Of a stretch of DNA of 56,857 nucleotides, positions 7,557 to 20,524 are shown piece by piece. The stretch is from Candidatus Latescibacterota bacterium (lineage in GTDB: Bacteria > Krumholzibacteriota > Krumholzibacteriia > G020349025), in assembly GCA_020349025.1 (NCBI GenBank), contig CP070763.1, positions 1,400,558 to 1,457,414 of the forward strand, written 5' to 3'. The position numbers and the translations under genes were made by a program. The notes under the pieces were generated by a model that made no database searches, was not told where the DNA came from, and saw only the letters and a program-made list of their open reading frames with translations. The stretch's first letter is position 1. Each line of letters opens with the position of its first letter.

Positions 7557-8873
7557 ATGCACCCGGGAGACGGCATGGACTCGGCCCGGCCGGAAGACAC
7601 CGCCGCATCGCGTCTCGGCGCGGCGAATCCGCGCCCCGCGGATGCGTTGGCCTCGTGGCGCTTCATCTCCGATGCGGCGAGTGAGCTCACCGCCAGCCTC
7701 AAGCTCGCGGACGTTTTCCAGCGCATCGCCAAGCGCGTGCTCGATGTCGTCCCCAGCCACCTCTTCTGCATCATGTTGTGGAACGAAGAGCAGCAGGCGC
7801 TGGAACACAGCTACTCGCTCAAGTTCGGTGAGCACGTCGAGCAGAATGGGCTCTTTCCGCTCGGGCACGGGATCTCCGGCTCCGCAGCACAGCTGCGTCG
7901 CTCCATCCGTGTCGCCGACGTGAAACAAGATCCACGCTACGTCCGCTTTCGACACGCCGAGGTCAACATCCGTTCCGAGCTCGCGATTCCGCTCATCGTG
8001 CAAGATCGGCTCGTCGGAGTGCTCGACCTCGAAAGCATGGAAGCGAACCTCTTCACGGACGAGCATGAGCACATGCTGACCGCCCTCGCATCGCACATCG
8101 CGACCGCAGTGGAAAACGCGCGGCTCTACGAGCGACTTCTGAAGAACGAGCAGCGCCTCGCGCAAGAGCTGGCGATCGCGCGCAAGATCCAGCTGAGCCT
8201 GCTTCCGAACTACGTTCCGCGCCTGCGCGGGATCGAGATCGGCTCCTCGTTCGCGCCCGCCCGGGAGCTCGCAGGCGACTTCTTCGATTTCCTCCCGTAC
8301 GGCGCAGGCATCGCGATCGCGGTCGGCGACGTCGCGGGCAAGTCGACTCCGGCGGCACTCTACGGGTCGCTCGCCGTCGGCACCCTGCGCGCCCACGTCG
8401 TGCAGCACCAGTGCACGCCCGCCGAGTTGATGGAGCACGTCAACGAGCAGCTGCAGGTCTTGCGCAACGAGAATCGTTTCGTGGCGCTCGTGTACTGCCT
8501 CGTCGATCCGGACACGCGCCGGATCCGAGTCGCCAACGCGGGTTTCCCGCTGCCGCGCCTCGTACGTCATGGCGTGGTGCGAAGCCTCGAGGTTTCGGGG
8601 CACCCGCTCGGCATGTTCAAGAGCGTGCACTACGACGAGCTGGAGCTGGAGCTGCAGCCGGGAGATGTGATCGCGCTGTGCTCGGATGGACTGGAGGAGT
8701 GCCTCGAGGACTCCGGCCAGAAAAGCTGCCTCGATGCATGGCTGGCACGTGTTGCCAAGCTGACGGCGCAGGACATCGCGGACGAGCTGATGCGTCACAG
8801 CGCGCCGACCCCCGAAAAACCGTCCCGCGTCGCCGACGATCGCACGGTCGTCGTCATTCGCGCCACCGAGTAG
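7557..8873 (+). CDS. GAF-domain PP2C/SpoIIE-type serine phosphatase (RsbU-like)
   Basis: The 438-residue protein is predicted to be cytoplasmic, with no signal peptide or membrane segment. Residues about 40-190 form a GAF sensory domain. A helical linker (about 187-215) leads into a SpoIIE phosphatase domain (about 215-437) that keeps its metal-binding motifs: GDFFDF (240-245), GDVAGK (257-262), SDGLEE (376-381) and VADDRT (425-430). Proteins of this architecture dephosphorylate anti-sigma-factor antagonists or similar phosphoserine switches in response to a ligand at the GAF domain. No STAS or anti-sigma kinase gene is visible nearby, so the partner is unknown. The start at 7557 has AAGG six bases upstream; ATG 7575 is an alternative. 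It overlaps or abuts the next small gene. Confidence 0.9.
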   Translation: MHPGDGMDSARPEDTAASRLGAANPRPADALASWRFISDAASELTASLKLADVFQRIAKRVLDVVPSHLFCIMLWNEEQQALEHSYSLKFGEHVEQNGLFPLGHGISGSAAQLRRSIRVADVKQDPRYVRFRHAEVNIRSELAIPLIVQDRLVGVLDLESMEANLFTDEHEHMLTALASHIATAVENARLYERLLKNEQRLAQELAIARKIQLSLLPNYVPRLRGIEIGSSFAPARELAGDFFDFLPYGAGIAIAVGDVAGKSTPAALYGSLAVGTLRAHVVQHQCTPAELMEHVNEQLQVLRNENRFVALVYCLVDPDTRRIRVANAGFPLPRLVRHGVVRSLEVSGHPLGMFKSVHYDELELELQPGDVIALCSDGLEECLEDSGQKSCLDAWLARVAKLTAQDIADELMRHSAPTPEKPSRVADDRTVVVIRATE

Positions 8874-9248
8874 GTGATTGGCAACGCGATGCTTGGTTCG
8901 TCTTCATCGGATGAGCGCCGGCGGCGGCTGAGCGGACTCTACCCGCAGCTGGGGCGTCGGTACGAACGCGTCGACTTGACGGCGCACCGGCATCGCAGCC
9001 GTGCGGCCCGGCGCCGTGCGCTGTTGCTGAAGACGATTTTCGAATCGGTCGTCGTGCGCTATTCGAAGGAGCTCCAGGTCGAGCCTGCGATGGTCGAAGA
9101 CTTCGCGCACGTGGTCGCGAGCCGACTCCGCACCGAGGTGCGTGCCGATTGGAGTGTCGAGAAGGCCGAAGCACGCGCCCACGAGATCGCCGAACGCCTC
9201 TTCGAAGAGCTCGACGCCCCGGGCAACGATTCCGCCGCGCCCGGCTAG
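8874..9248 (+). CDS. Small basic protein of unknown function, next to the phosphatase gene
   Basis: A 124-residue frame starts with GTG directly after the stop of the phosphatase gene; an ATG at 8889 is an equally possible start. The N-terminal third is rich in arginine (DERRRRLS, RSRAARRRALLLK) and the rest looks alpha-helical, with regular acidic and hydrophobic spacing. I see no signal peptide, membrane segment or known motif. Immediate adjacency suggests co-transcription with the GAF-SpoIIE phosphatase, so it may be a partner or regulator. The last 4 bp overlap the end of the convergent gene. Confidence 0.6.
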   Translation: MIGNAMLGSSSSDERRRRLSGLYPQLGRRYERVDLTAHRHRSRAARRRALLLKTIFESVVVRYSKELQVEPAMVEDFAHVVASRLRTEVRADWSVEKAEARAHEIAERLFEELDAPGNDSAAPG

Positions 9249-10186
9249 GGACCGACCCGGACCGACAACGCTCCATGCTCCGGTGCGTCCGGAGCAACCT
9301 CCGTCAAAGCCTGGATCCGCGACGGATCACCGAGCACGCGCGGGCCGAGCTCACGCACGAGGTTCTGCGTCAGCGCGTTCGCGAGCTCGAAGCTGCGCGC
9401 GATCGCCTTGACCTGCACCGGCTGGTCGAGCTGCGCCGCCTGGTTGATCCAGCTCGCCGTCTCCAGCACCACGGGTGCCGGCATCGGCGTGCGTTGACGC
9501 GGATCCGCCTTCACCCGCAGCGCCTCGCCCGAAAACATCATCAGGAGAGAGTCATCGTTCTGCACACGATACGGTCGCAGCTCGAACCCCTGGCCCACGA
9601 AGTTGCGTTTGTTCCCGGCGCGGTCGTGCGCCTCGAGCACATAGGAGTAGGTGAGGCCCGGCAACGAGGGCTCACCCGCAGTGGAGAGCCCATTCCACGC
9701 GATCTCCTGCGGCGGCTTGCCGCGCCCGCCGAATTCCACCACCGTCTCCCCGCGTGAGTCGGCCACCGTGAGCTTCCAGCTCTCGACGCCGTCGAGCTGT
9801 GGGCGGAAACGTGCCACCGGGCCGTCGCCCAACTCGTCGAGCCAGGCGCGCCCGAGATAGGGGGAGCGCGCAAAGGCGGAGGCCGCAAGCAGCGGCGTGT
9901 TCAGGTCGGGGCGCTCGCGGTCGAGCACCTCGCGTGCGTCGCCCAGATCGAGCCCCTTCGTCTGTCGCGGATCGAAGTGCAGATCCAGCGTCGGGCGCTC
10001 GAACTCGATCCGGATGCGATCCTCACCCTCGATCGTCAGGCTCCCGAACGCAGTCCCCTCCTTGCCCCCCTGCAACGTCATCTTCTCGTCGCGAGGCGGA
10101 TCATCGGCCGCGCTCCACATCGGTGCCGCCACCAGAAGGGCGCCGAGTAGCGCGGCACGTGTGCATCGAATCGACCATGCGGACAT
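9245..10186 (-). CDS. Exported protein with FlgD-like Ig domain, last gene of the ExbBD-TonB operon
   Basis: The 313-residue protein has a signal peptide (MSAWSIRCTRAAL... to about residue 27). ATG 10186 is chosen because GAGGTGA lies seven bases upstream. The centre (about 125-210) resembles FlgD-type Ig modules: WKLTVAD, VVEFGGRGKPP, IAWNG and YSYVLEAHDRAGN. This is the same arrangement as the C-terminal domain of the PorV-like protein in this operon (EWRLEIVN, RRFGGRGAPP, VMWDGKDESG). The last 100 residues are unassigned. It starts 7 bp after the tonB stop, so it belongs to the operon and probably acts in the periplasm or at the outer membrane with the motor proteins. Confidence 0.75.
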   Translation of the reverse strand: MSAWSIRCTRAALLGALLVAAPMWSAADDPPRDEKMTLQGGKEGTAFGSLTIEGEDRIRIEFERPTLDLHFDPRQTKGLDLGDAREVLDRERPDLNTPLLAASAFARSPYLGRAWLDELGDGPVARFRPQLDGVESWKLTVADSRGETVVEFGGRGKPPQEIAWNGLSTAGEPSLPGLTYSYVLEAHDRAGNKRNFVGQGFELRPYRVQNDDSLLMMFSGEALRVKADPRQRTPMPAPVVLETASWINQAAQLDQPVQVKAIARSFELANALTQNLVRELGPRVLGDPSRIQALTEVAPDAPEHGALSVRVGP

Positions 10187-10193
10187 CGTCACA

Positions 10194-11120
10194 TCACCTC
10201 GCACGGAGTCGGAAATGGAACGTGATCGTTCCCCACTGCTCACCCGTCACGCCGGGCCCGAGCGGGGCGAATCTCCAGCTGCGCAGCGCTGCCACCGCGT
10301 TGGCGTCGAACTCCTGGTATCCGGAGGTTTTCTCGACGAAGATGTTCTCCTTGATGCTGCCATCGGGTCGCACGACGAAGTAGAGGCTGACGGAAGCTTC
10401 GACCCCCTGCGCTTTCGCCCACTCCGGATACTCCGGCGCCGAGTGCGAGCGCAGCGGTCGGTCCGCCACCGGTCCCATCAGCGAGGCCCCCGCCAGGTTC
10501 CTGACGTTGGAGCGGTCGACGTCTTTCGGACGCGACGACGCTGTTTCCGGTGTCGGCGCCTTCACCTGCGCCAGGCGTGGCGTCGACGGCAGATTCGAGG
10601 CACGCACCAAAGGCACCGGGGGCTGCTTCTTGCCCGCGTCGCGCTTGAGCGCCAGGGGCGCCGCACGCGTCGGCTCGCTCGGCCGGACCGGCTTCACGCC
10701 CGACACGGGAGTGGGCGCTTCGAGCGCCGCCGGGCGGCGCTCTTGATGCTCGCTGCGCTGCAGCGATGCCAGACGCTTGCTCAAGCGGTCCTGCACCGCG
10801 CGCGGCGACTGCGGCCTCGGTGCCACCTCCGCTTTCGGCTCGCGGCGCTCGAACTGCTGCGGCTGCGGCTTCGGTTGGCTGCGAGGCGCAACCTCTTTCA
10901 CCGGCTCTGGTGCCTGAGCCGGCTCCGGTTGTGCGGGCTGCAGCAGCGCCTCCGGGTCGATCCACGTGATCTCCGTGATCGCCGGGGTCTCCGAAATGAG
11001 GTGTGGGTGCAGCGCCATCCACATCAGGACGAGCGCGTGCACGACGAGGCTCACTCCCTGGGCTCGTCGCGTGCGCACATCGATGCGCAGATGCTCGACT
11101 GTGGAGGTAGCGGCGGTCAC
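10194..11120 (-). CDS. tonB: TonB-family energy transducer
   Basis: The 308-residue protein has the TonB layout. A short cytoplasmic N-terminus is followed by one membrane anchor (about residues 20-40, GVSLVVHALVLMWMAL). A long Pro/Lys/Arg/Glu-rich periplasmic linker (about 55-200) follows, then a C-terminal TonB domain (about 225-305) with the motifs PEYPEWA, VSLYFVVRPDGS, TSGYQEFDANAVAALR and WRFAPL. It starts with GTG overlapping the exbD stop (GTGA), so translation is coupled. Acting with the ExbB and two ExbD proteins encoded just upstream, it would carry proton-motive energy to an outer-membrane partner. The PorV-like barrel and adhesin in the same operon are the obvious candidates; no TonB-dependent receptor is present. 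Confidence 0.9.
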   Translation of the reverse strand: MTAATSTVEHLRIDVRTRRAQGVSLVVHALVLMWMALHPHLISETPAITEITWIDPEALLQPAQPEPAQAPEPVKEVAPRSQPKPQPQQFERREPKAEVAPRPQSPRAVQDRLSKRLASLQRSEHQERRPAALEAPTPVSGVKPVRPSEPTRAAPLALKRDAGKKQPPVPLVRASNLPSTPRLAQVKAPTPETASSRPKDVDRSNVRNLAGASLMGPVADRPLRSHSAPEYPEWAKAQGVEASVSLYFVVRPDGSIKENIFVEKTSGYQEFDANAVAALRSWRFAPLGPGVTGEQWGTITFHFRLRAR

Positions 11121-11539
11121 GGGGTCTCCTCCCCTTTCTGGCGCGTGGCGATGGCGAGTCGAACCGCCCCCGCGTTTCGCACCCGCCCGAGAATGGACTC
11201 CACCTGAGCGTACGGGGTGCCGCGGTCGGCGCGCACGACGACGAGCACGTCCTCTTCGATGCCGTCGAGCCGAGCGCCGAGAACGGCCTCGAACGCCGTC
11301 GATGCCACCGTTTCGTCATCCACCGCCAGCTCGCCCGCTTGTCCCACCGTGATCAAAATGCGTGTCGGGTCCTCGCGCCCTCGAGTGTGCGCCTGTGGCA
11401 GATCGATCTCGAAGTCGGCAACCGAGAGGATGGGAGCCGTGATCAACAGGATGATCACGAGCACCAGCGCCACGTCGATGATCGGCGTGACGTTGATCCG
11501 CGACACCATGTCGCCTTTCTTCACCAGTGGAGCGCGCAT
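11117..11539 (-). CDS. exbD: ExbD/TolR-family protein (second copy)
   Basis: The 140-residue protein has a single N-terminal transmembrane helix (about 19-40, TPIIDVALVLVIILL) containing the conserved aspartate D22 needed for proton passage, and a periplasmic ExbD fold (about 50-135). ATG 11539 sits six bases after GGGGAG and one base after the previous exbD stop, so an in-frame extension upstream is unlikely. It differs clearly from the neighbouring ExbD (residues such as EIDLPQAHTRGRED), so the motor probably contains two non-identical ExbD/TolR subunits, as in AglQ/AglS of myxobacteria. Confidence 0.9.
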   Translation of the reverse strand: MRAPLVKKGDMVSRINVTPIIDVALVLVIILLITAPILSVADFEIDLPQAHTRGREDPTRILITVGQAGELAVDDETVASTAFEAVLGARLDGIEEDVLVVVRADRGTPYAQVESILGRVRNAGAVRLAIATRQKGEETP

Positions 11540-11540
11540 G

Positions 11541-11951
11541 CTATCTCCCCATGACTGCGATCTCGCCCGCTCCGGAGAGCTTCGCCACATCGAGAACGTC
11601 GACGAAGGCCCCGTGCGAAACGCCCTGCGCACACGTCACGACCACGGCGCGCCGGGAGCTGTCGGTCAGGAGTGGCTCCAGCGTGCGCCGCAGGGAGGCC
11701 CTGGCAACGATCTCGCGGTTGACCCGCACGCTGTCCTCCGACACCACCTTGAGCTCGACGAACTCGACCTGCTTCTCCTGGCGAGCCGATTTCGCCTGCG
11801 CCTCCGAGCGGTTGACGGCGATGCTCGACTCGAAGGCCAGCGGTGTCGCTAGCATGAGCATCACGACGAGCACCAACGAGACGTCGATCAGAGGCGTCAG
11901 GTTGACGTTGCCTTCATCGCCCTTGGCATTCCGAAGCTGCTTTTGAAACAC
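11541..11951 (-). CDS. exbD: ExbD/TolR-family protein (first copy)
   Basis: The 136-residue protein has the transmembrane helix NLTPLIDVSLVLVVML (about 17-38) with the conserved aspartate D23, followed by a periplasmic domain with two cysteines. It starts with GTG, with GGAG six bases upstream, 10 bp after the exbB stop. Family knowledge: ExbD/TolR dimers sit inside the ExbB/TolQ pentamer and couple proton flow to movement. Its stop is separated by a single base from the start of the second exbD. Confidence 0.9.
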   Translation of the reverse strand: MFQKQLRNAKGDEGNVNLTPLIDVSLVLVVMLMLATPLAFESSIAVNRSEAQAKSARQEKQVEFVELKVVSEDSVRVNREIVARASLRRTLEPLLTDSSRRAVVVTCAQGVSHGAFVDVLDVAKLSGAGEIAVMGR

Positions 11952-11961
11952 GACCGGCTCC

Positions 11962-12702
11962 TCAGATCACTCGCGACGTCGCCGGAGACGGCGTCTGCAG
12001 CTTCGCCTTGTGCGATTTCTCCGGCGTCACATTGGCGCCGGCCGGTGGCTGCGACGGCGGTGTGGAGGCATCCACGTCGCCGAGCGCACCGTGCACGAGG
12101 CTCGCGCGCAGCGTGCGCGCATGGTTCTCCGCCACCGTGAGCATCACGTTCATCTGGCGGGTGAAGTGGTTGTAGAGCATGACTGCCGGCACGGCGATGA
12201 CGAGGCCCGCCGCCGTGGTCACGAGCGCCTCGGCGACACCGGCTGCGACCACCGCGGGTGCAGCCGAGCCGGTCTGCGCCATGTCGTGGAAGGCGCGCAT
12301 GATGCCCCACACCGTACCGAGAAGCCCGACGAGCGGCGCCACGGCTGCCATCGTTCCCAGGAATCCGAGGTTGCGCTCGAGAAGCAGCTTCTGCTCGGAG
12401 AGGGTGATCTGCATCTTCTCCTCGATCTCCTGCTTCGACCCCGCCTGGTGCTCGAACACCTGCGCCGCCACCGCACCCATCGGGTGCGACGAAGACTGGC
12501 AGGCCCAGGCCGCTTCGCGCACCTGCCCGGCGTGCAACTTCTTCAGCGCATGCGCCAGGGTGTCGTCCGGGTTGCCGCGGCGCTTGTGGAAGTAGTAGAC
12601 GCGCTCCAGCACGACACCGAGCGTGAGCACGCTGCAACCGATCAGCACGACCATGACGGGGCTGCTACCGATTGCTCCGATCCAGTCGAAGTGGGTCAGC
12701 AT
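11962..12702 (-). CDS. exbB: ExbB/TolQ/MotA-family proton channel subunit
   Basis: The 246-residue inner-membrane protein has three predicted helices at about 15-35, 116-138 and 158-180, with the cytoplasmic domain between the first two. This is the standard ExbB/TolQ topology. The signature stretches VAPLVGLLGTVWGIM and ALVTTAAGLVIAVPA are present. The ATG is preceded by GGAG at eight bases. It lies 23 bp downstream of the large TPR gene and 10 bp upstream of exbD, so it is part of the same transcript. It would form the stator of the operon's trans-envelope motor. Its C-terminal 40 residues are hydrophilic and unassigned. Confidence 0.92.
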   Translation of the reverse strand: MLTHFDWIGAIGSSPVMVVLIGCSVLTLGVVLERVYYFHKRRGNPDDTLAHALKKLHAGQVREAAWACQSSSHPMGAVAAQVFEHQAGSKQEIEEKMQITLSEQKLLLERNLGFLGTMAAVAPLVGLLGTVWGIMRAFHDMAQTGSAAPAVVAAGVAEALVTTAAGLVIAVPAVMLYNHFTRQMNVMLTVAENHARTLRASLVHGALGDVDASTPPSQPPAGANVTPEKSHKAKLQTPSPATSRVI

Positions 12703-12725
12703 GTCGCGAACTCCTTCTCTTGCTG

Positions 12726-15700
12726 CTACTGCACGGTGGTCTCGAGCTCCGCGGCGCGCTCCTTCGCGGCTGCAACGAGCTCTGCATCCTCGGCGTTCCG
12801 GACCAGATCCCGGTACGCCACCAGCGCCTTCTTGTAATCCCCACGCTCTTCATGCAGTGCGGCCACGCGCACCACGGCGGAGAGCCGGAAGGCGTTCGAC
12901 TTCTCTTTCGCTTTCATGGCTTTGCCGTACGAAACGAGAGCCGCATCCACGTTCCCCAGTTGCTCGTGGCACCCGCCGACCCGGTAGCGCAGCTCGACGC
13001 GGAGCGCTTGGCTCGGCTTCGAAGCCAAAGCCTTCTCGAACTCCGCCAAGGCCAGGTCGTAGGCGCCCGACTTGTCGTGGATGTCGCCAATCTGATAGGC
13101 GATGTCGGCGGCGCGCTCGTCCTGCGGATGCGCGGCACGATAACGCTCGAGCGTCTGCTTCGCCGCGTCGCTGTCTTCGAGCATGCGTTGGCAAAGCCCC
13201 AGGTTGTAGAGCGACGCTCGCTTCATCTCGTCGGTGCCGTCCGAATCGAGGACGCCGGTGAACTGCACGGCGGCACGCATGTAATCGGATGCACCGAAGT
13301 GCAGCATGGCGAGCCGGAACTGCGCCGTCGAGCGCAGCTCGCTCTCCGGGAAGAACATCAGGAACTGCTCGTAACCGCGGCGTGCGTCGTCGGCGGCCTC
13401 CATTTGCTCGTAGGCGTCCGCCATCAGGAAGTGCGCCTGGTCCACGGCAGAGAAGCCGGGGAACTGCGTGACGACGCGTCGAAAGGCGTCCGCGGCCTCC
13501 GTGAAGCGTTTCGCATCGTAGTGGTGCATGGCGATCTTGAACTGCGCATCCGCGGCGAAACTGCTCGACGGATAGCGATCCACCAGCTCGGCGAGCACCT
13601 GCATGCCACCCTCTTGCTGCCCCAGCCGGTAGAGCGCCAGCTCGCTGCCGCGCTCCGCTTCGTGCCCCACTTCGGTGCCCGCGTAGCGTTGCGCCACTTC
13701 GGAGAAGCGCTGCAAGGCCTCGGCGTCACGCCCGGCGTTGTAGTCGCACTGCGCCAGGCGCAAGCTCGCCATCGCCGCGGCCGGGCTGTTGGCAAAGTTC
13801 TCGAGCAGACCGGCGTAGCTCGCCTTCGCCTTGTCGTAATGCTCGGCGCGGAAGTAGAGGTCGCCGGCACGGACCCAAGCCTGCTCGGCGATCCCCTCCG
13901 TGGGGGCTTCCTGCACCAGGACCTGCCAGCGGTCGACGGCGTCGCCGTTCTGATCGAGGCGCGAGTAGGCGACGCCGGCCTGATAGAGCGCCTGCAGCCG
14001 CCCGTCGCTCTGCGGGAAGCGGCGCAGGAAATCCTCGTAGGCTGCCGCCGCTTCCACGTAGCTCTTGCGGTTGAAGAGCACGTGCGCCTTGTTCAAGTAG
14101 GCGTTCGCCATGTACTCCGGGTTGCCGCTCGCGGCGTAGCGCTGCAGCATGCGCTCCTCCGTCTCGATGGCGAGCTGATCCTGCCCCTGCTGTGCATAGG
14201 TCCACGCCAACAGGCGGTTGGCGAGGATCGCCACCTCGTGCTCCGGAAAGTCGCGGATCAGGGCTTCGAGAGTACCCTGCGCCTCCTCGTGCCGTCCCTG
14301 CGAAGCCAGCGCGTCCGCGTCGATGAGCAGCGCGAAGGCGCGCCAGTTCGTGCGACTCGGTGGCATCTGCTGCAGGGTGAGATGCGGCACGCCGGAGAGC
14401 TGCCCGAGGTCACCGGCGCGGTGATACGACAGCTGCAAGAGGGCGAGCGCCGCCTCCACGAGCTCCTGATGCTCTGGCGTCTCGAAGACGAAGACGCTGG
14501 CGGACTCGTCCAGGTGCGCGTAGCGATCGAGGACGATCTGGAAGTAGGGCGCCGCGGCGAGCGGCAGACCTTGATCGAGAAGCCCGACACCGGCCAGGTA
14601 CGCGGCAGCCGGTGCTTCGCGCTGCAACGAGTATCCGGAGACCACCGCCTGGTAGGAGCTGGTGGCCTCGGTGCCACGCCCGAGCGCGTCGAGGCTCAAG
14701 CCCACGCGGTACTGGGCGGCCGCCGCCAGCTCGTGCTCGAAGTAGGAGGTCAGGACGCGGTTGAACTCGACGATCGCCTCCTCGTGGCGCTGCTGCACGT
14801 AGAGCACCTCGCCGAGGAGAAACTGCGCCCGCGCCGCGACGCCGGTCCCCGCGTGTGCTTGCGTCACCGCGCGCAGCTCGACCGTGCCGTTCTCGTAGTC
14901 CTCATCCAGGACCAGAGCGGCGGCGCGACGCAGCGCCGCCTCGGCACCCACCTCGGGAGTCGAGACCATCTCGGTGACGCGGCCGAACTCTTCGGCGGCG
15001 CTTCGGTATGCCTTGCTGTCGAGGAAGGTGTTGGCCTTGGCGATCAATGCGTGATCACGCAGGTGCGACTCCGGGTAGCGATCGACGACTTCCTGATAGA
15101 GCGCGGCGGCCTTCAGCCGTGCCCCCTGTGCGTCCTGGCACAGCGCGCGCAGGAAGCTGGCGGAAGCGCCGGTGACATCGGGCGTGAGCGCCGCCAGCGC
15201 ATCGTCGACGCGTGCCTCCAGATAGGCGAGCGTCGCCGTGGCCAGTCCGACGCGCGGATCGTTCTGCATCCAGGGGTAGCGGGCGCGCAGCTCCTCGAGC
15301 GTCCCGGTCGCCTCCTTCAGCGCCACGCGACGCAGCGCATTCCAGGTACGCGCCAGCTTCACTTCGGGAGCGAGCGGGCTTTGGGAATGCTTCTTCTCCC
15401 ACTTCGCCCATTGCTTCGCTGCCTCCTCGTCGGCGCCCTCGGCCTCGAGCGCCTCGATGGCCGCGAAGGCCGCATCGTCGGCGAAGGGACCGCGCTTGTC
15501 GGAGCGTGCGGCGTCACGAAACGCCTCTGCGGCGGCGCCGAAGTTGCCGCGCGCGTAGTGGATCTCGCCGGCAAGAAGCTGTGCCGCAGCACGCCGGCCG
15601 TCGGCGCCGCCTGCCCGCAACGCCTCGGCCAGGGCGTGCTCCGTCTCGCTCAGCGCGGCCTCACGCTCGGCGAGCGTGCGTGCCCGCGCCCGCTCCAGCT

Positions 15701-15839
15701 GCATTCCCACACCGGCGAGAGTCGGAGCCGACTGCTGCGAGGCCTCCTGCTCCCCGGCACGCGCCGATGCGGGCAGCACAATGCTAGCGCCTGCAAGCAG
15801 CACTGCGATCGCGGCGCCTCGTGTACGCATGCTCGTCAT
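12726..15839 (-). CDS. Large exported TPR-repeat protein
   Basis: The 1037-residue protein has a signal peptide (MTSMRTRGAAIAVLLAGASI...ASARA, cleavage near residue 27) and is otherwise an almost continuous TPR solenoid. Recurrent pairs such as AAAAYEDFLRRFPQSDGRLQALYQAG and ADAFRRVVTQFPG recur every 34-38 residues across about 80-1030. ATG 15839 is chosen because GAGGGAG lies eight bases upstream; the frame extends further 5' but without a comparable start. TPR solenoids of this kind are periplasmic or outer-membrane-associated scaffolds. Its position between the PorV-like barrel and exbB suggests it links the outer-membrane part to the inner-membrane motor, comparable in position, not proven in homology, to the TPR components of gliding machines. 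Confidence 0.88.
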   Translation of the reverse strand: MTSMRTRGAAIAVLLAGASIVLPASARAGEQEASQQSAPTLAGVGMQLERARARTLAEREAALSETEHALAEALRAGGADGRRAAAQLLAGEIHYARGNFGAAAEAFRDAARSDKRGPFADDAAFAAIEALEAEGADEEAAKQWAKWEKKHSQSPLAPEVKLARTWNALRRVALKEATGTLEELRARYPWMQNDPRVGLATATLAYLEARVDDALAALTPDVTGASASFLRALCQDAQGARLKAAALYQEVVDRYPESHLRDHALIAKANTFLDSKAYRSAAEEFGRVTEMVSTPEVGAEAALRRAAALVLDEDYENGTVELRAVTQAHAGTGVAARAQFLLGEVLYVQQRHEEAIVEFNRVLTSYFEHELAAAAQYRVGLSLDALGRGTEATSSYQAVVSGYSLQREAPAAAYLAGVGLLDQGLPLAAAPYFQIVLDRYAHLDESASVFVFETPEHQELVEAALALLQLSYHRAGDLGQLSGVPHLTLQQMPPSRTNWRAFALLIDADALASQGRHEEAQGTLEALIRDFPEHEVAILANRLLAWTYAQQGQDQLAIETEERMLQRYAASGNPEYMANAYLNKAHVLFNRKSYVEAAAAYEDFLRRFPQSDGRLQALYQAGVAYSRLDQNGDAVDRWQVLVQEAPTEGIAEQAWVRAGDLYFRAEHYDKAKASYAGLLENFANSPAAAMASLRLAQCDYNAGRDAEALQRFSEVAQRYAGTEVGHEAERGSELALYRLGQQEGGMQVLAELVDRYPSSSFAADAQFKIAMHHYDAKRFTEAADAFRRVVTQFPGFSAVDQAHFLMADAYEQMEAADDARRGYEQFLMFFPESELRSTAQFRLAMLHFGASDYMRAAVQFTGVLDSDGTDEMKRASLYNLGLCQRMLEDSDAAKQTLERYRAAHPQDERAADIAYQIGDIHDKSGAYDLALAEFEKALASKPSQALRVELRYRVGGCHEQLGNVDAALVSYGKAMKAKEKSNAFRLSAVVRVAALHEERGDYKKALVAYRDLVRNAEDAELVAAAKERAAELETTVQ

Positions 15840-15855
15840 GGCTGCGCTCCCTCGT

Positions 15856-17121
15856 TCACGGTTCCACGTACACCGGCACCGAGCCCTGCGGGCCGCTCGT
15901 GGCGATCTCGACCTGGCGAACTCGACTGGCGACCTCGCGCCCGTGCTTGTCCCAGACCGCGATCTGATAGCGATAGATGCCGTCGGCCAGCGGCAACCCG
16001 GACTCATCCTTGCCATCCCACATCACGTGAGCGGGCGGTGCGCCACGACCACCGAAGCGGCGTACGACCTGGTTGGAGGCGTTGACGATCTCGAGACGCC
16101 ATTCGCGCGCCTCCGCTTTCGTGTGCGCCTCGAGCTGGATCTTGGTCACCGACTGCTGACCGGTCGGCGAGAAGACGGGCGGGCTCGCGACCGAGCTCGC
16201 GAAGAAGCCGCCAAACTTGTAGGCAACGCCCACACGATGCACCAGCCCGAGCGCGTGGTCGGAGACGCCGTAATCGAAGCGCAGGCCGGTCGGCAGCCGG
16301 TAGCTGAAGCCCCCGGCGGCGTAGGCATCGTTGTAGCCGAGCCGGAGCGCCATCGTCGGATGCACCCAGACCTCGCTCCCAGTGTGCAGGCTCGGGCCCG
16401 GACCGTCGCGGTTGTCGAGCTCGGCTGCGACCGTGCCGCGTCCACCAAAGAACTGGAACGCCAGACCGCCGCGGAACTCCACCGGGAAGCTCTCCCCCGT
16501 GTCGCGCAGCTTCAGCGTGGGGCCGCCGATGTTCATCAGCGACGTGCCGACACGCAGACTCGGCGTGACGTCGAACATGAGACCCAGGTCCACGCCGAAG
16601 CCAGCGCCTTCGAACTCCTCGAGCGTTTGCCGCACGATCTTGAGGTTCGTTCCCAGCGAAAAACGTGGCGTCACGGTTTTCGAGGCCGTCAGCAGAACCG
16701 CCACGTCCCCCTCGTCGAACGTCCCGAGCGACTCGTTGAGCTCGCTCGTGCGCTCGAACTCTCCGGAGGAGAGCTGCAGGAACGTGAATCCGAAGCTCGG
16801 GATCCGACGCGCCGGGGCAGCGAAGCTGAAACCGTAGATCGCCGTGTCCTCGAACAGGCGGGTGGTCTCGAAGTGCACCTCGTTCTGGAACATGAGCGAC
16901 AGACCGGCCGGGTTCCACACCACACCCATGGGCTCGTTGGCGACGGCCACGAAGGCCCCGCCATACCCCACCGTGCGCGCACCGGAGTAGCGCGATAGCC
17001 AGTCGCCCGGTGCGCCACCATTCTGATCCTCAGCGTGCGCGACCGAAGCCAGCGTCAGTCCGGCCGCAAGCGCCAGGACCAGGACTCGGCCGCAGTGCGT
17101 ATGACGTGCGTTGAGATCCAT
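15856..17121 (-). CDS. PorV/PorQ-like outer-membrane barrel with C-terminal FlgD-type Ig domain
   Basis: The 421-residue protein has a signal peptide (about 1-30). Residues about 40-320 form a predicted beta barrel of the PorV/UPF0164 type. The N-terminal signature is typical: ARTVGYGGAFVAVANEP then GVVWNPAGLS, the latter echoing the NPAGLA-type motif of PorV/FadL-related proteins. Unusually, residues about 335-415 add a FlgD-like Ig module (EWRLEIVNASNQVV, RRFGGRGAPP, MWDGKDESGLPLADGIYRYQI). PorV shuttles substrates in type IX secretion. Here the barrel gene lies 11 bp after a surface protein with a sorting-like C-terminus. The start has GGAGGAG four bases upstream. Confidence 0.8.
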   Translation of the reverse strand: MDLNARHTHCGRVLVLALAAGLTLASVAHAEDQNGGAPGDWLSRYSGARTVGYGGAFVAVANEPMGVVWNPAGLSLMFQNEVHFETTRLFEDTAIYGFSFAAPARRIPSFGFTFLQLSSGEFERTSELNESLGTFDEGDVAVLLTASKTVTPRFSLGTNLKIVRQTLEEFEGAGFGVDLGLMFDVTPSLRVGTSLMNIGGPTLKLRDTGESFPVEFRGGLAFQFFGGRGTVAAELDNRDGPGPSLHTGSEVWVHPTMALRLGYNDAYAAGGFSYRLPTGLRFDYGVSDHALGLVHRVGVAYKFGGFFASSVASPPVFSPTGQQSVTKIQLEAHTKAEAREWRLEIVNASNQVVRRFGGRGAPPAHVMWDGKDESGLPLADGIYRYQIAVWDKHGREVASRVRQVEIATSGPQGSVPVYVEP

Positions 17122-17132
17122 GGCTCCTCCGA

Positions 17133-20100
17133 TCAGCGCACGACCGCGATTTTGCGGCGCATGACGTGAAGTGTTTCGCCGGCTCCCTCCGCCTCGACGA
17201 CGAGCAGGTAGCCGCCGCTCGAAACGAAATCACCGTCACCGTTGCGTCCATCCCAGACGTACTCGTTGAGCCCCACGCGCCCACCGACTTCACCGGCCTG
17301 GAACTCCTGGCGCAGCACCAGGCCACCGCTCAGCGTGTAGAGCTCGATGCGCACGCTGGCGTTGTCGGCCAGCTTGTAGGCGATCGTCGTCGGCGCTTCG
17401 CCCGGATGGAACGGATTCGGATAGTTGGTCACGAAACCACCCGGTGCGGTCGGATCGACGAAGGCGGTCTCCAGTTCGTAGTCGGTGACGAGAGCGCCCG
17501 ACGTCGCCCGCACCACGGTGATCTGCGGCGAGCGCGCACTCAGGAAGTCGGCGCGCGACACGCCACCGTCGTCGGTCAAGCTGTCGACCGGCGTCAGCTC
17601 GCCGTCGCCACTCACGATCGAGAAATCGACCACCTGTCCCGGCACGCCGTTGTCGAAGGCATCGAGCACCGTGGCGATCACGGTCGCGTGCTTGTTGCCT
17701 CCGACCCAGGTCGGGTCGCTCGTCAAGGTCAGTGCGGCCGGCTGTCCCGGGAGCACCGTGATCACCTCGGACACCGCCGGCTCGTTGCCGGCGTCGTCGC
17801 GGATGATCAGGACGATCGGCTCGGAGAAGGTGTAGGTGAGAGCCACCGAGCGCTGCCCCTGCAACAGCTGGAACTGCGTCTGGCTCAGCGTGCCCGCACC
17901 CGGGTCCTGCGTCGAAGCGTTCTGCACCTCGATCTCGACCGAGGAGTTGATCTCCTGGATGACACTGCCGGCGTCGTTGGTGACGGCCACGGTCAGCGTG
18001 AACGGCTCACCTGCCTGCACGGTCGTCGGAGTGACCTCGGCCTCGAGGTGAAAGCCGCTCGAGATCGCACGCACCTGGGTGGTGCTGCTCGGGATCCCGG
18101 GGTTGCTCACGTTCGACGCCGTGATCTGCTGGAAGCCACCCGTCGACAGGCGTATCACCATGTCAGCGAGGCCATCCACCATGGCCGCGTCGGGCGGCAG
18201 CTGGGCGAGCGGGTCGTTCGACGTGATCGCCACGACGTCCGTCACCCCCGACACCGGGTTGAACCAGTTGTCGGTGGCGTAGACCCGAAGCGTGAAGGCG
18301 AAGTTGATCGACTGGTCGGTGGCGCTCCCGGTACGCCCCTCCTCCGTCCCGGGCGCCATCTCTTCGCCCGGGGCGAGGAGCAGAAGGCGCGCGTAGGGAC
18401 CGGAGAGCACCTGCACGGCACTCGACGTATGCCCGGCGACACCGCTCGTGTCGACCGCGCTGACGCTGATCGTCTGCGACCCCGCCCTGAAGAGCGTGAT
18501 CGGCAGGAAGAGCTCACCGTTCGTCAGAGTCGTGTCGCTCGGCATGTCGGCGAACCCGTCGCTCGAGACGAGTGCGAAGCGTGCGTCGATACCTGGAACG
18601 CGGTTCCAGTAGTCGTCGACCGCGCGCACCTGCAGGTTGAAGCTGCTGCCGGCGTTCTGATCATCCGGCGCACCGCTGATGCCGGAGTCGGTGCCGCCCG
18701 CGGGCGTCTCGCCCGGTAAGAGCACCTGCAAACCGGTGAAGGCGCCCGGCAAGACCGTGAAGTTGTCGCTCGTCCCGATGTTGGGAGGCGAGGAGTAGTC
18801 GGAGCAGGTGAAAGCGACAGCTCCGCCGGCGCCCCGGAACACCATGGCGCCGCTCCACACACCGTTGGTGAACACGATGGCCTCGGGCGAGATGCTTCCC
18901 GGTCCGGTGTTGGCCGCGAGGATCGCGTCACCGTTGTAGTCGACGAGCGGGTTGCCGCCGCTGTCCGAGGCGCGAATCGTGACGCTCACCGGATCTCCCG
19001 CCGTCACCGGCGAGGCGATCGGATCGATGAGGAACTGGCTCACGGCGGCGGGGATCACCTGGATCCCGGGGGTCGTCATTCCCCGGATCGAACCGTTGCT
19101 CTGGTCCGTGATCGACAGCGTCTGCGTGCCGACCGTGTTGAGCGTCACGAAGAACTGACCGATGCCGTTGTTCATCGCTCCCGTGACCGGGGTGCTGGCA
19201 TTGTTGTCACTCGACGTGATGCGCACGGTGTCGCCGCTCGGCACCGGGTTCCAGTACTGGTCGGTGGCGAAGACGTCGACCTCGAAGGTCTGGCCGACAC
19301 CGTGCGTCGCAGGCGAGCCCGTGACGCCGCTGACGCTTCCGGGAAGCGGGTCTTGACCAGGAACGACGATCTGCACCCGAGCGAAGGGCCCCGGATGCAC
19401 GGTGAATGGATCGCTCGTGCCGTTCTTCGACTGGTCGACGCCGAGGAAAGCGAAGATGTTCACGTTGCCACGATTGATCGCGGTCTCGTCGGCGCGGTAC
19501 ATCGTCACGGACCCGGACCAGGTGCCACCGCTCAGCGTGACGATGCTCGGCTCGATACGCCCCACGCCGAAGCTCGTGATCTGCTGTAGGCGCACCGCAC
19601 CGGTGAAGCCGCTGACCACGTTGCCCTGCGGATCCACGGCCGACAACGTGATCGCCATCGGCTGCCCTGCGTTCTGGTTTTTCTGGTTGATGCGTGAGAA
19701 CTCGAAACCGTTCACCACCAGAGCGGTGAAGGGGGCCGAGGTCGCCTGCGGGATCGTCGGGTCGGTCAGATCGTCGGCCGAGAACGTGAAGGAGCCGGCG
19801 GCGTTGACCGTCACCGTGAGCGTGACCTCGCCCGCGCTCAGAGCCGTCTGACCCGGGAGTGTCGCGCCCGCGTCGGACGACGAGAGCTCGACGACATCGC
19901 TGATCGAGGTCACGGTGTTCCACGAATCGTCGCAGGCTCTCACCCGAATGTCGAAGGGGATGCCGACAGTCTGCGCGTCGGGTGTACCGAGCTTGCCGGT
20001 CCCGGTCCCCGGGGCAGCGCTCTCCCCGGGCAGCAACACCTGCAGCTGCGTGTACTCCTGTGCGAAGCCCGACGCGGGGTGCAGAAGCTGCAACGACAGG

Positions 20101-20144
20101 ACTGTACTCGCAACAATGAGACTTCTCAGAAACGTTCGTTGCAC
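17133..20144 (-). CDS. Large repetitive surface/adhesin-like protein with FlgD/T9SS-like C-terminal domain
   Basis: About 1003 residues. The frame also has GTG at 20153, but GAGG lies nine bases before the GTG at 20144. A signal peptide (ending near GFA-QE) is followed by beta-sandwich repeats of two kinds. Type A occurs four times (about residues 37, 260, 475 and 590, numbered from 20153) with the pattern LxVLLPGE...GTxxGxxGxPxxQ...FxxxVxAxDxxWNPV. Type B (about 150 and 374) contains AGxPxxxTxxAxDxxGNxV. A Big_1-like segment precedes the C-terminal 100 residues, which start NYPNPFHPGE and contain EYVWDGRNGDGD and a basic end. This last module matches FlgD-Ig/type-A sorting domains. First gene of the eight-gene operon. 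Confidence 0.8.
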   Translation of the reverse strand: MQRTFLRSLIVASTVLSLQLLHPASGFAQEYTQLQVLLPGESAAPGTGTGKLGTPDAQTVGIPFDIRVRACDDSWNTVTSISDVVELSSSDAGATLPGQTALSAGEVTLTVTVNAAGSFTFSADDLTDPTIPQATSAPFTALVVNGFEFSRINQKNQNAGQPMAITLSAVDPQGNVVSGFTGAVRLQQITSFGVGRIEPSIVTLSGGTWSGSVTMYRADETAINRGNVNIFAFLGVDQSKNGTSDPFTVHPGPFARVQIVVPGQDPLPGSVSGVTGSPATHGVGQTFEVDVFATDQYWNPVPSGDTVRITSSDNNASTPVTGAMNNGIGQFFVTLNTVGTQTLSITDQSNGSIRGMTTPGIQVIPAAVSQFLIDPIASPVTAGDPVSVTIRASDSGGNPLVDYNGDAILAANTGPGSISPEAIVFTNGVWSGAMVFRGAGGAVAFTCSDYSSPPNIGTSDNFTVLPGAFTGLQVLLPGETPAGGTDSGISGAPDDQNAGSSFNLQVRAVDDYWNRVPGIDARFALVSSDGFADMPSDTTLTNGELFLPITLFRAGSQTISVSAVDTSGVAGHTSSAVQVLSGPYARLLLLAPGEEMAPGTEEGRTGSATDQSINFAFTLRVYATDNWFNPVSGVTDVVAITSNDPLAQLPPDAAMVDGLADMVIRLSTGGFQQITASNVSNPGIPSSTTQVRAISSGFHLEAEVTPTTVQAGEPFTLTVAVTNDAGSVIQEINSSVEIEVQNASTQDPGAGTLSQTQFQLLQGQRSVALTYTFSEPIVLIIRDDAGNEPAVSEVITVLPGQPAALTLTSDPTWVGGNKHATVIATVLDAFDNGVPGQVVDFSIVSGDGELTPVDSLTDDGGVSRADFLSARSPQITVVRATSGALVTDYELETAFVDPTAPGGFVTNYPNPFHPGEAPTTIAYKLADNASVRIELYTLSGGLVLRQEFQAGEVGGRVGLNEYVWDGRNGDGDFVSSGGYLLVVEAEGAGETLHVMRRKIAVVR

Positions 20145-20524
20145 GACATCCACCCTCTCTGGGCTGATTCACAAAAGCCGGAGGTCGCATCGGGAACCAC
20201 GAGGTTCCATCTGATGCAGCCAATCCTGCGCAGTGAAATATGACTCCATGCAACTATCAGGAGTCGTGCCACCGGCGGTCGACGACGAAGGCGACGACAA
20301 GCGCACGAGCCGCTCAGAACAGAGTCGATCGCGAACGCGGGGGCGTGGCGACCTGCGAACGAAAGACGCCCGGGGCCTCTGGCGCACGCAGACCTTGCAA
20401 CATGCAAGTTGGAGAGGGCGGCTTGATGCTCGTTCTCGGGTCCCGACATCCTGACCCATCGGACCCCGGAGGTGTGACCGCTCCGTTGCGAGCAACGCTC
20501 CCCGTTGTCGCCCGTCCTTCCCGA
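20145..20524. other. Intergenic region upstream of the eight-gene operon, no gene seen
   Basis: This 380-bp stretch lies between the start of the adhesin operon (-) and the stop of the small barrel gene (-), so it should hold the operon promoter. The first 150 bp are locally AT-richer (TGAAATATGACTCC near 20232). Two short perfect inverted repeats are visible: GGAACC-acga-GGTTCC (about 20193-20208) and CTTGCA-aca-TGCAAG (about 20394-20408). Either could be an operator. No clear -35/-10 pair and no plausible small gene were found. Confidence 0.4.

Follow-up and report, generated by a model that had tools for sequence, protein, structure and literature searches.

Eight tandem genes in the genome of a bacterium deposited as Candidatus Latescibacterota and assigned to Krumholzibacteriota may encode a dedicated, proton-powered carrier of one surface protein, and their products recall several envelope machines that have been described before. 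The Agl-Glt core (AglR, AglQ, AglS, GltD, GltE, GltG and GltC) comprises a TolQ/MotA-type protein, two TolR-type proteins, a giant tetratricopeptide repeat (TPR) protein, GltD, of 1191 amino acids (aa), and a TonB-like transducer. Its genes are described as clustered in Gammaproteobacteria, Geobacter and Fibrobacter, with an unknown function in the gammaproteobacteria (PMC3169522). In the published model of type IX secretion, PorV and its cargo are forced off SprA by an energy input (PMC10994853). In Flavobacterium, the gene of a type B cargo lies directly before that of its cognate SprF-PorP shuttle, and five operons are reported to add a PorE-like, peptidoglycan-linked protein (PMC12618676). 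For export driven by TonB, PopC/Oar of Myxococcus is a precedent (PMC11658791). A survey of periplasmic force transducers published in 2025 covers vWA transducers, TPR genes that co-occur with them and a PorE tether; the string "Krumholz" is absent from its main text (PMC12204202). In a literature search that did not extend to bioRxiv preprints or to the bulk of subscription journals, no published description of the eight-gene operon was found, nor any paper linking Krumholzibacteriota with type IX secretion.

The operon lies in a stretch of 56,857 nucleotides, here called the window (assembly GCA_020349025.1, contig CP070763.1, forward-strand positions 1,400,558 to 1,457,414), which is part of a single-contig genome of 3.84 Mb. 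Positions are counted from the first letter of the window. The genes, g1 to g8, are all on the minus strand and run from 20144 to 9245, spaced by 11, 16, 23, 10, 1, −4 and 7 bases. They encode a likely exported protein of 1003 aa with immunoglobulin (Ig)-like repeats (g1, 17133..20144; Big_1, 54.4 bits), a PorV/PorQ-family outer-membrane barrel of 421 aa (g2, 15856..17121), and a likely exported protein of 1037 aa with matches to TPR families and partial matches to YbgF, YfiO and PorW (g3, 12726..15839). These are followed by an ExbB/TolQ proton-channel subunit of 246 aa (g4, 11962..12702; MotA_ExbB PF01618, 116.3 bits), two ExbDs of 136 and 140 aa (ExbD1, g5, 11541..11951, and ExbD2, g6, 11117..11539; PF02472, 60.6 and 82.3 bits), a TonB of 308 aa with an S-x3-H motif (g7, 10194..11120) whose C-terminal domain at 10206..10439 matches TonB_C (PF03544, 56.4 bits), and a likely periplasmic protein of 313 aa (g8, 9245..10186). 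The parts, the single strand and the tight spacing, −4 to 23 bases, are as a sequence-only reading of the window had described them.

By architecture, the Agl-Glt core appears to be the closest known relative of this operon, a likeness drawn from the list of parts and not from sequence kinship. Common to both are a TolQ-like protein with two TolR-like proteins (g4 to g6), a giant TPR protein (g3) and a TonB-like protein (g7). Unlike the Agl-Glt core, the operon adds a PorV, a likely surface protein bearing a C-terminal domain (CTD) and a FlgD-Ig/OmpA-like protein; counterparts of GltE and GltC were not found, and there is a single TPR gene among the eight. GltG combines FHA with TonB_C, whereas g7 has TonB_C and no FHA match. 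With the type IX system (SprA, PorV, GldLM) the operon shares the PorV shuttle family, a putative cargo with a CTD-like tail, a SprA encoded elsewhere in the genome and a motor driven by the proton-motive force. It departs from that system in that GldL was not found, in its ExbB/ExbD/TonB motor, which is co-encoded with one cargo-shuttle pair, and in the extra C-terminal Ig domain of g2. The order of cargo then shuttle is that of the Flavobacterium type B operons, but the shuttle belongs to the PorV and not the PorP/SprF family, and the operon contains its own motor, which has two ExbDs and a TonB. The pairs ExbB/TolQ, ExbD/TolR and TonB/TolA, the last with S-x3-H, are those of Ton and Tol-Pal systems, and the TPR and OmpA-like parts recall CpoB and Pal; unlike these systems, the operon contains no receptor, TolB or Pal lipoprotein, and its two ExbDs are kept one-to-one over 68 loci. 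The sequence-only reading had held that such a machine was undescribed in this form. This is true only in part: the core of giant TPR, TolQ, two TolR and TonB-like proteins had been published as Agl-Glt (PMC3169522), and operons of cargo, shuttle and PorE were known in Flavobacterium (PMC12618676).

Gene order was compared over 117 loci, namely the window, 36 stretches from relatives and 80 named loci taken from a single ExbB scan. The ExbB bit cut-off was passed by 113 (L102, L104, L108 and L210 were dropped), and the merging of 21 duplicates left 92 distinct loci. The complete set of eight genes is present in 38 of these, including L184, in which PorV and TPR occupy one open reading frame (ORF), and is distributed over Krumholzibacteriota, Eisenbacteria (L147) and Calditrichota (L175, with L182, a close relative in the ExbB tree). 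The window and the 36 loci fetched first include 32 with sufficient flank, and 31 of the 32 are complete, a proportion biased by the choice of the 36 for a match to g8 or to its Ig domain. The exception, L104 of the outgroup genome G096, had been fetched for an Ig match and has only PorV, without the other operon genes. The g8 protein was matched in 59 of 98 genomes, in some through the Ig domain only. Because the same order recurs in relatives with ExbB identity down to 31%, and in other phyla, the arrangement is beyond chance; the possibility raised at the outset, that the order would prove not to be conserved, thereby falls away, and the proposal of one conserved trans-envelope unit with a proton motor is supported. 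The genes flanking the window's operon are common to only one of the 36 fetched loci, the same-family L075, so it is the unit that is conserved and not the region.

The core of TPR-ExbB-ExbD-ExbD-TonB-g8 occurs alone in 13 of the 92 loci, and the core machine is therefore separable from the outer-membrane and cargo module of g1 and g2. The core is also present in Elusimicrobiota, where the barrel and the surface gene were undetected. Two types of operon can be distinguished by the length of g1, approximately 1000 aa in one and 2180–2460 aa in the other (stop to stop, uncut copies), and both are found together in G017, G029 and G068. An insert of about 4.4 kb separates TPR from ExbB in L094, L100 and L103. 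That of L100, the only one scanned for families, encodes an enoyl-CoA-hydratase-family protein and a 4Fe-4S protein; considered as machine parts, these genes showed no clear tie to the machine. Several public labels are at odds with content. L206 ("Fibrobacter sp.") lies in G405, whose SprA match is at a place identical to that of the class member G040, and was not counted as another phylum; L155 and L140 ("Gemmatimonadales" and "Latescibacterota") are likewise on contigs or in genomes of this class. L184 is labelled Clostridia yet encodes outer-membrane parts, and its phylum was treated as unknown.

A covalent connection between barrel and TPR protein is seen in L184, where a single frame of 1356 aa contains the PorV barrel (residues 8–330) and the operon TPR protein (350–1354). 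The fusion gene sits between that of a CTD-bearing protein and ExbB-ExbD-ExbD-TonB-g8. In a search of public proteins limited to that length range, nine of 16 matches have the same join. These proteins, P0001–P0009, come from several sources, are 1206–1394 aa long and 45–94% identical, and score 506–770 bits with the TPR profile (the score of P0002 is that of a 547-bit portion of a split match); in P0008 the first half of the barrel is missing. In each of the ten fusions the PorV match stops where the barrel does, at residues 303–313 of the window PorV. A profile built from the Ig part of PorV matched none of the ten at E 10; it did find the PorV of the window, one of the sequences on which it was trained. 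Because these ten fusions are covalent and lack the Ig part, we infer that the C-terminal FlgD-type Ig domain of g2 (15952..16152; FlgD_ig, 35 bits), predicted to be periplasmic, normally docks PorV on the TPR protein and is dispensable once the two are joined. The remaining matches are not the same fusion. The TPRs of the 911-aa PorV-TPR proteins P0011 and P0013–P0015 barely register with the operon TPR profile, at 10 bits, and P0010, P0012 and P0016 are other PorV-containing proteins; in P0010, of 758 aa, a PorV-like barrel is joined to an S-layer homology domain (PF00395).

The assignment of g2 to the PorV family holds by sequence profile, with a fitting predicted fold, and the PorV-like barrel proposed from the letters alone is in this respect supported. 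The protein scores 109.6 bits with PorV_fam (NF033709, cut-off 90), and its profile matched PorV of F. johnsoniae (6h3i_F) at E 4.8e-15. The AlphaFold2 model, of predicted local distance difference test (pLDDT) score 85.4, gave PDB PorV as its top Foldseek matches. By eye, 14 strands of a barrel were counted in the model at residues 80–303 (16213..16884). The presumed cargo, g1, ends in a FlgD_ig domain resembling a type IX CTD (17181..17402; PF13860, 28.7 bits, cut-off 27), and the same tail aligns with three NCBIfam type IX proteins (E 1e-6 to 8.9e-5), in each case far under the cut-off of the model. Across the genome there are 12 PorV_fam matches at 11 places, six of them over cut-off, and 84 FlgD_ig places, 69 over cut-off. 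A FlgD_ig domain lies no more than 1 kb before PorV, on the same strand, at five of the eight best of the 11 PorV places, the g1-g2 pair included; random placement gave a mean of 0.09 such pairs and a maximum of three in 100,000, the pairing having first been noticed and then tested. None of the three weaker PorV places has a FlgD_ig partner. These observations suggest that cargo-shuttle pairs are a common pattern in this genome, in the order known from Flavobacterium type B cargo (PMC12618676). A paralogous cluster in the same genome, L071 (G000:C1:2658000-2677500), provides a second link of PorV to ExbB-ExbD-ExbD. It encodes a TonB-dependent receptor with CarboxypepD_reg, a PorV, a GWxTD-domain protein, ExbB, two ExbDs and an outer membrane efflux protein, as well as a protein without a family match whose tail looks CTD-like by eye.

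The two ExbDs were compared in 68 distinct loci of the operon type, that is, with ExbB, two ExbDs and TonB. ExbD1 and ExbD2 are split by one branch (SH-aLRT 98, in a quick tree from few columns) and, judged from their sequences, are ancient separate paralogues kept one-to-one over the 68 loci. The transmembrane Asp is present in both ExbDs at 39 loci, the window among them (D23 of ExbD1, codon 11885-11883; D22 of ExbD2, codon 11476-11474). It is lost from ExbD2 at 28 loci, with Asn at 23, Gly at three and Ser at two, and from ExbD1 at one, with Asn (L197, a long branch of uncertain place); none of the 68 lacks it in both. Non-operon loci with two ExbDs have kept both Asp residues in 12 of 12 cases. 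Several independent losses from ExbD2 were considered and not retained: the best tree of the 68 ExbBs needs three changes, but a single origin is not rejected (approximately unbiased test, p 0.45), and hence no more than two loss events, one for each ExbD, have to be assumed. As the paralogues are never separated and at most one Asp is lost per locus, the pattern points to an obligate ExbD1-ExbD2 heterodimer. A homodimer formed by the Asp-less subunit would be without this proton carrier. For AglQ and AglS, the choice between hetero- and homodimer is described as unresolved in a review (PMC9389320), and a recent structure paper expects that, of two Asp residues, one is the proton carrier during the power stroke (PMC12215075). 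Tandem exbD genes are reported in a Ton cluster of Xanthomonas, where iron uptake does not require exbD2 (PMC3551730). The hydrophobic S-x3-H pattern is found in 65 of the 68 operon TonBs. With odds slightly short of even, these loci may represent a separate class of envelope machine, having one motor per cargo and PorV shuttle, an obligate ExbD1-ExbD2 pair and often an asymmetric, one-Asp axle in a 5:2 motor.

How these parts might act together can be proposed as follows. The surface protein g1 would cross the outer membrane through SprA, encoded elsewhere, and would be collected on the outer face, via its C-terminal domain, by g2 acting as its own shuttle. The periplasmic Ig domain of g2 would dock onto the TPR protein g3. 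Five ExbBs with one ExbD1 and one ExbD2 would drive TonB, and the motor would pull g2 from the periplasm by way of TonB and the TPR protein, while g8 may brace the complex against peptidoglycan. Force on PorV would free the PorV-g1 pair from SprA and then hold or position the pair; movement afterwards is conceivable. We assign a probability of roughly 0.45 to the operon being such a dedicated carrier, with a type IX-like cargo, its own PorV and a motor that pulls on that PorV. If so, a co-encoded Ton-like motor on a type IX shuttle can power surface proteins outside Bacteroidota, which would connect type IX secretion, Myxococcus gliding and the Ton/Tol systems, usually studied apart.

The type IX setting of the operon bears on this proposal. 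The genome encodes SprA in an ORF of 2232 aa (SprA_N, E 8.9e-14; PDB SprA 6h3j and 6h3i, E 4e-26 and 8.7e-26), and SprA was matched in 67 of 80 genomes of the class; many of these are weak Pfam matches in draft genomes, where false negatives may occur. In the 22 genomes named by ExbB loci, whether operon-bearing or not, SprA was matched in 16 and exceeded the cut-off in 11. In the 80 class genomes GldL never exceeded its cut-off, the best being G010 with 19.8 bits against a cut-off of 68.3; the model reached 190–195 bits in two other genomes of 387 and found none of 14 named controls. SprA without a recognisable GldL is widespread, as SprA occurs in 146 of the 387 genomes and GldL is over cut-off in one of these 146 (G281). 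GldM was matched in none of 98 genomes, but its absence is not established because no control matched either. In L116 (G000:C1:2472000-2491000) SprA adjoins two membrane proteins that by eye resemble LptF/LptG permeases, and neighbours of similar appearance are present at L118, L119 and L121.

Several findings weigh against a dedicated carrier of the kind proposed. SprA and g8, the latter scored as a full-length match, show no association in the 80 class genomes (46 with both, 10 with g8 only, 21 with SprA only and three with neither; Fisher p 0.74). The fold of g2 by itself does not separate PorV from FadL, whose Z scores are tied. Against PDB sequences, the tail of g1 has a sole match below E 0.01, FlgD at E 0.0012, which is not a type IX CTD. 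No TonB-box partner of g7 has been identified, although no search was made for one. The protein g8 is modelled as a FlgD-type Ig domain followed by an OmpA/MotB-like domain (9248..9577). By eye, the canonical diaminopimelate-binding Asp/Arg pair of OmpA was not seen in it, and peptidoglycan binding is accordingly doubtful. Cargo and barrel had been counted among the machine parts from the start, and they accompany the core in the 38 complete loci, but neither PorV nor g1 was detected in L163, L185, L190, L197 and L211; since about 10 kb of upstream flank is present in these five, their core-only state is not an effect of contig ends.

Secretion and motility are both compatible with the sequence. 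A surface-motility motor, in which g1 is an adhesin and the PorV-g1 pair is dragged along the cell as by AglRQS-Glt in Myxococcus or GldLM-SprB in Flavobacterium, is regarded as unlikely. It would account for the long Ig-repeat g1 of both operon types and for a set of part types matching that of the Agl-Glt core, with its TolQ-like, two TolR-like, giant TPR and TonB-like proteins (PMC3169522). Yet family scans found no GltE, GltC or FHA parts in the operon, and the sequence of g1 is conserved, at about 1000–1960 bits among uncut copies, unlike that of many adhesins. No motility phenotype is known to us from these groups, most of which are uncultured, and this counts against the explanation. 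It is still less probable that the operon serves as the general type IX motor of the clade, replacing GldL and GldM for all CTD-bearing cargo. The frequency of SprA in a class with no GldL over cut-off would be explained in this way, and the 84 FlgD_ig places suggest many cargos; however, a full-length g8 match is lacking in 21 of the 67 class genomes with SprA, in the 307 outgroup genomes SprA is found in 79 and g8 (at E < 1e-18) in four, and the GldM result, for the reason given, does not establish that GldM is missing. The attempt to identify the operon as the missing motor by its co-occurrence with SprA failed with the Fisher test above, and because the two are not associated, a general type IX motor is not claimed.

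Equally improbable is an ordinary Ton/Tol-type housekeeping function, by which TonB would energise unlinked TonB-dependent receptors or tether the outer membrane. The ExbB, ExbD and TonB domains are indeed ordinary, five barrels of TonB-dependent receptors are encoded elsewhere in the genome, and the tandem exbD genes of the Xanthomonas Ton cluster offer a parallel (PMC3551730). Against it stand two further clusters in the same genome, one TolQ-TolR-TolA-TolB-Pal-like (L072) and the other ExbB-ExbD-ExbD-TonB (L073), both separate from the operon, the lack of a receptor among the eight genes, and the linkage of PorV, TPR and g8 that is kept across phyla. Identity of the operon with Tol-Pal itself was rejected, as neither TolB nor Pal is among the eight genes and the genome has its own cluster of that type. 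L072 (G000:C1:1541000-1558000) encodes TolQ, TolR, TonB_2, a PD40 TolB-like protein, an OmpA Pal-like protein and TPR, and is followed by a FlgD_ig-bearing protein (G000:C1:1542219-1542392).

Some minor features of the window may be added. The start of g1 is a GTG at 20144 with AGAGAGG upstream; the ORF listing begins at 20153. The N-terminus of g8 is leader-like by eye, its FlgD_ig match of 13.4 bits is under the cut-off of 27, and no family exceeds its cut-off in this protein. The window gave no tRNA or tmRNA and no Rfam RNA family at gathering score. Convergent with the operon, on the plus strand at 7557-9248, lie an ORF of 124 aa for which no family match is credible and an ORF that by eye resembles a GAF-SpoIIE phosphatase.

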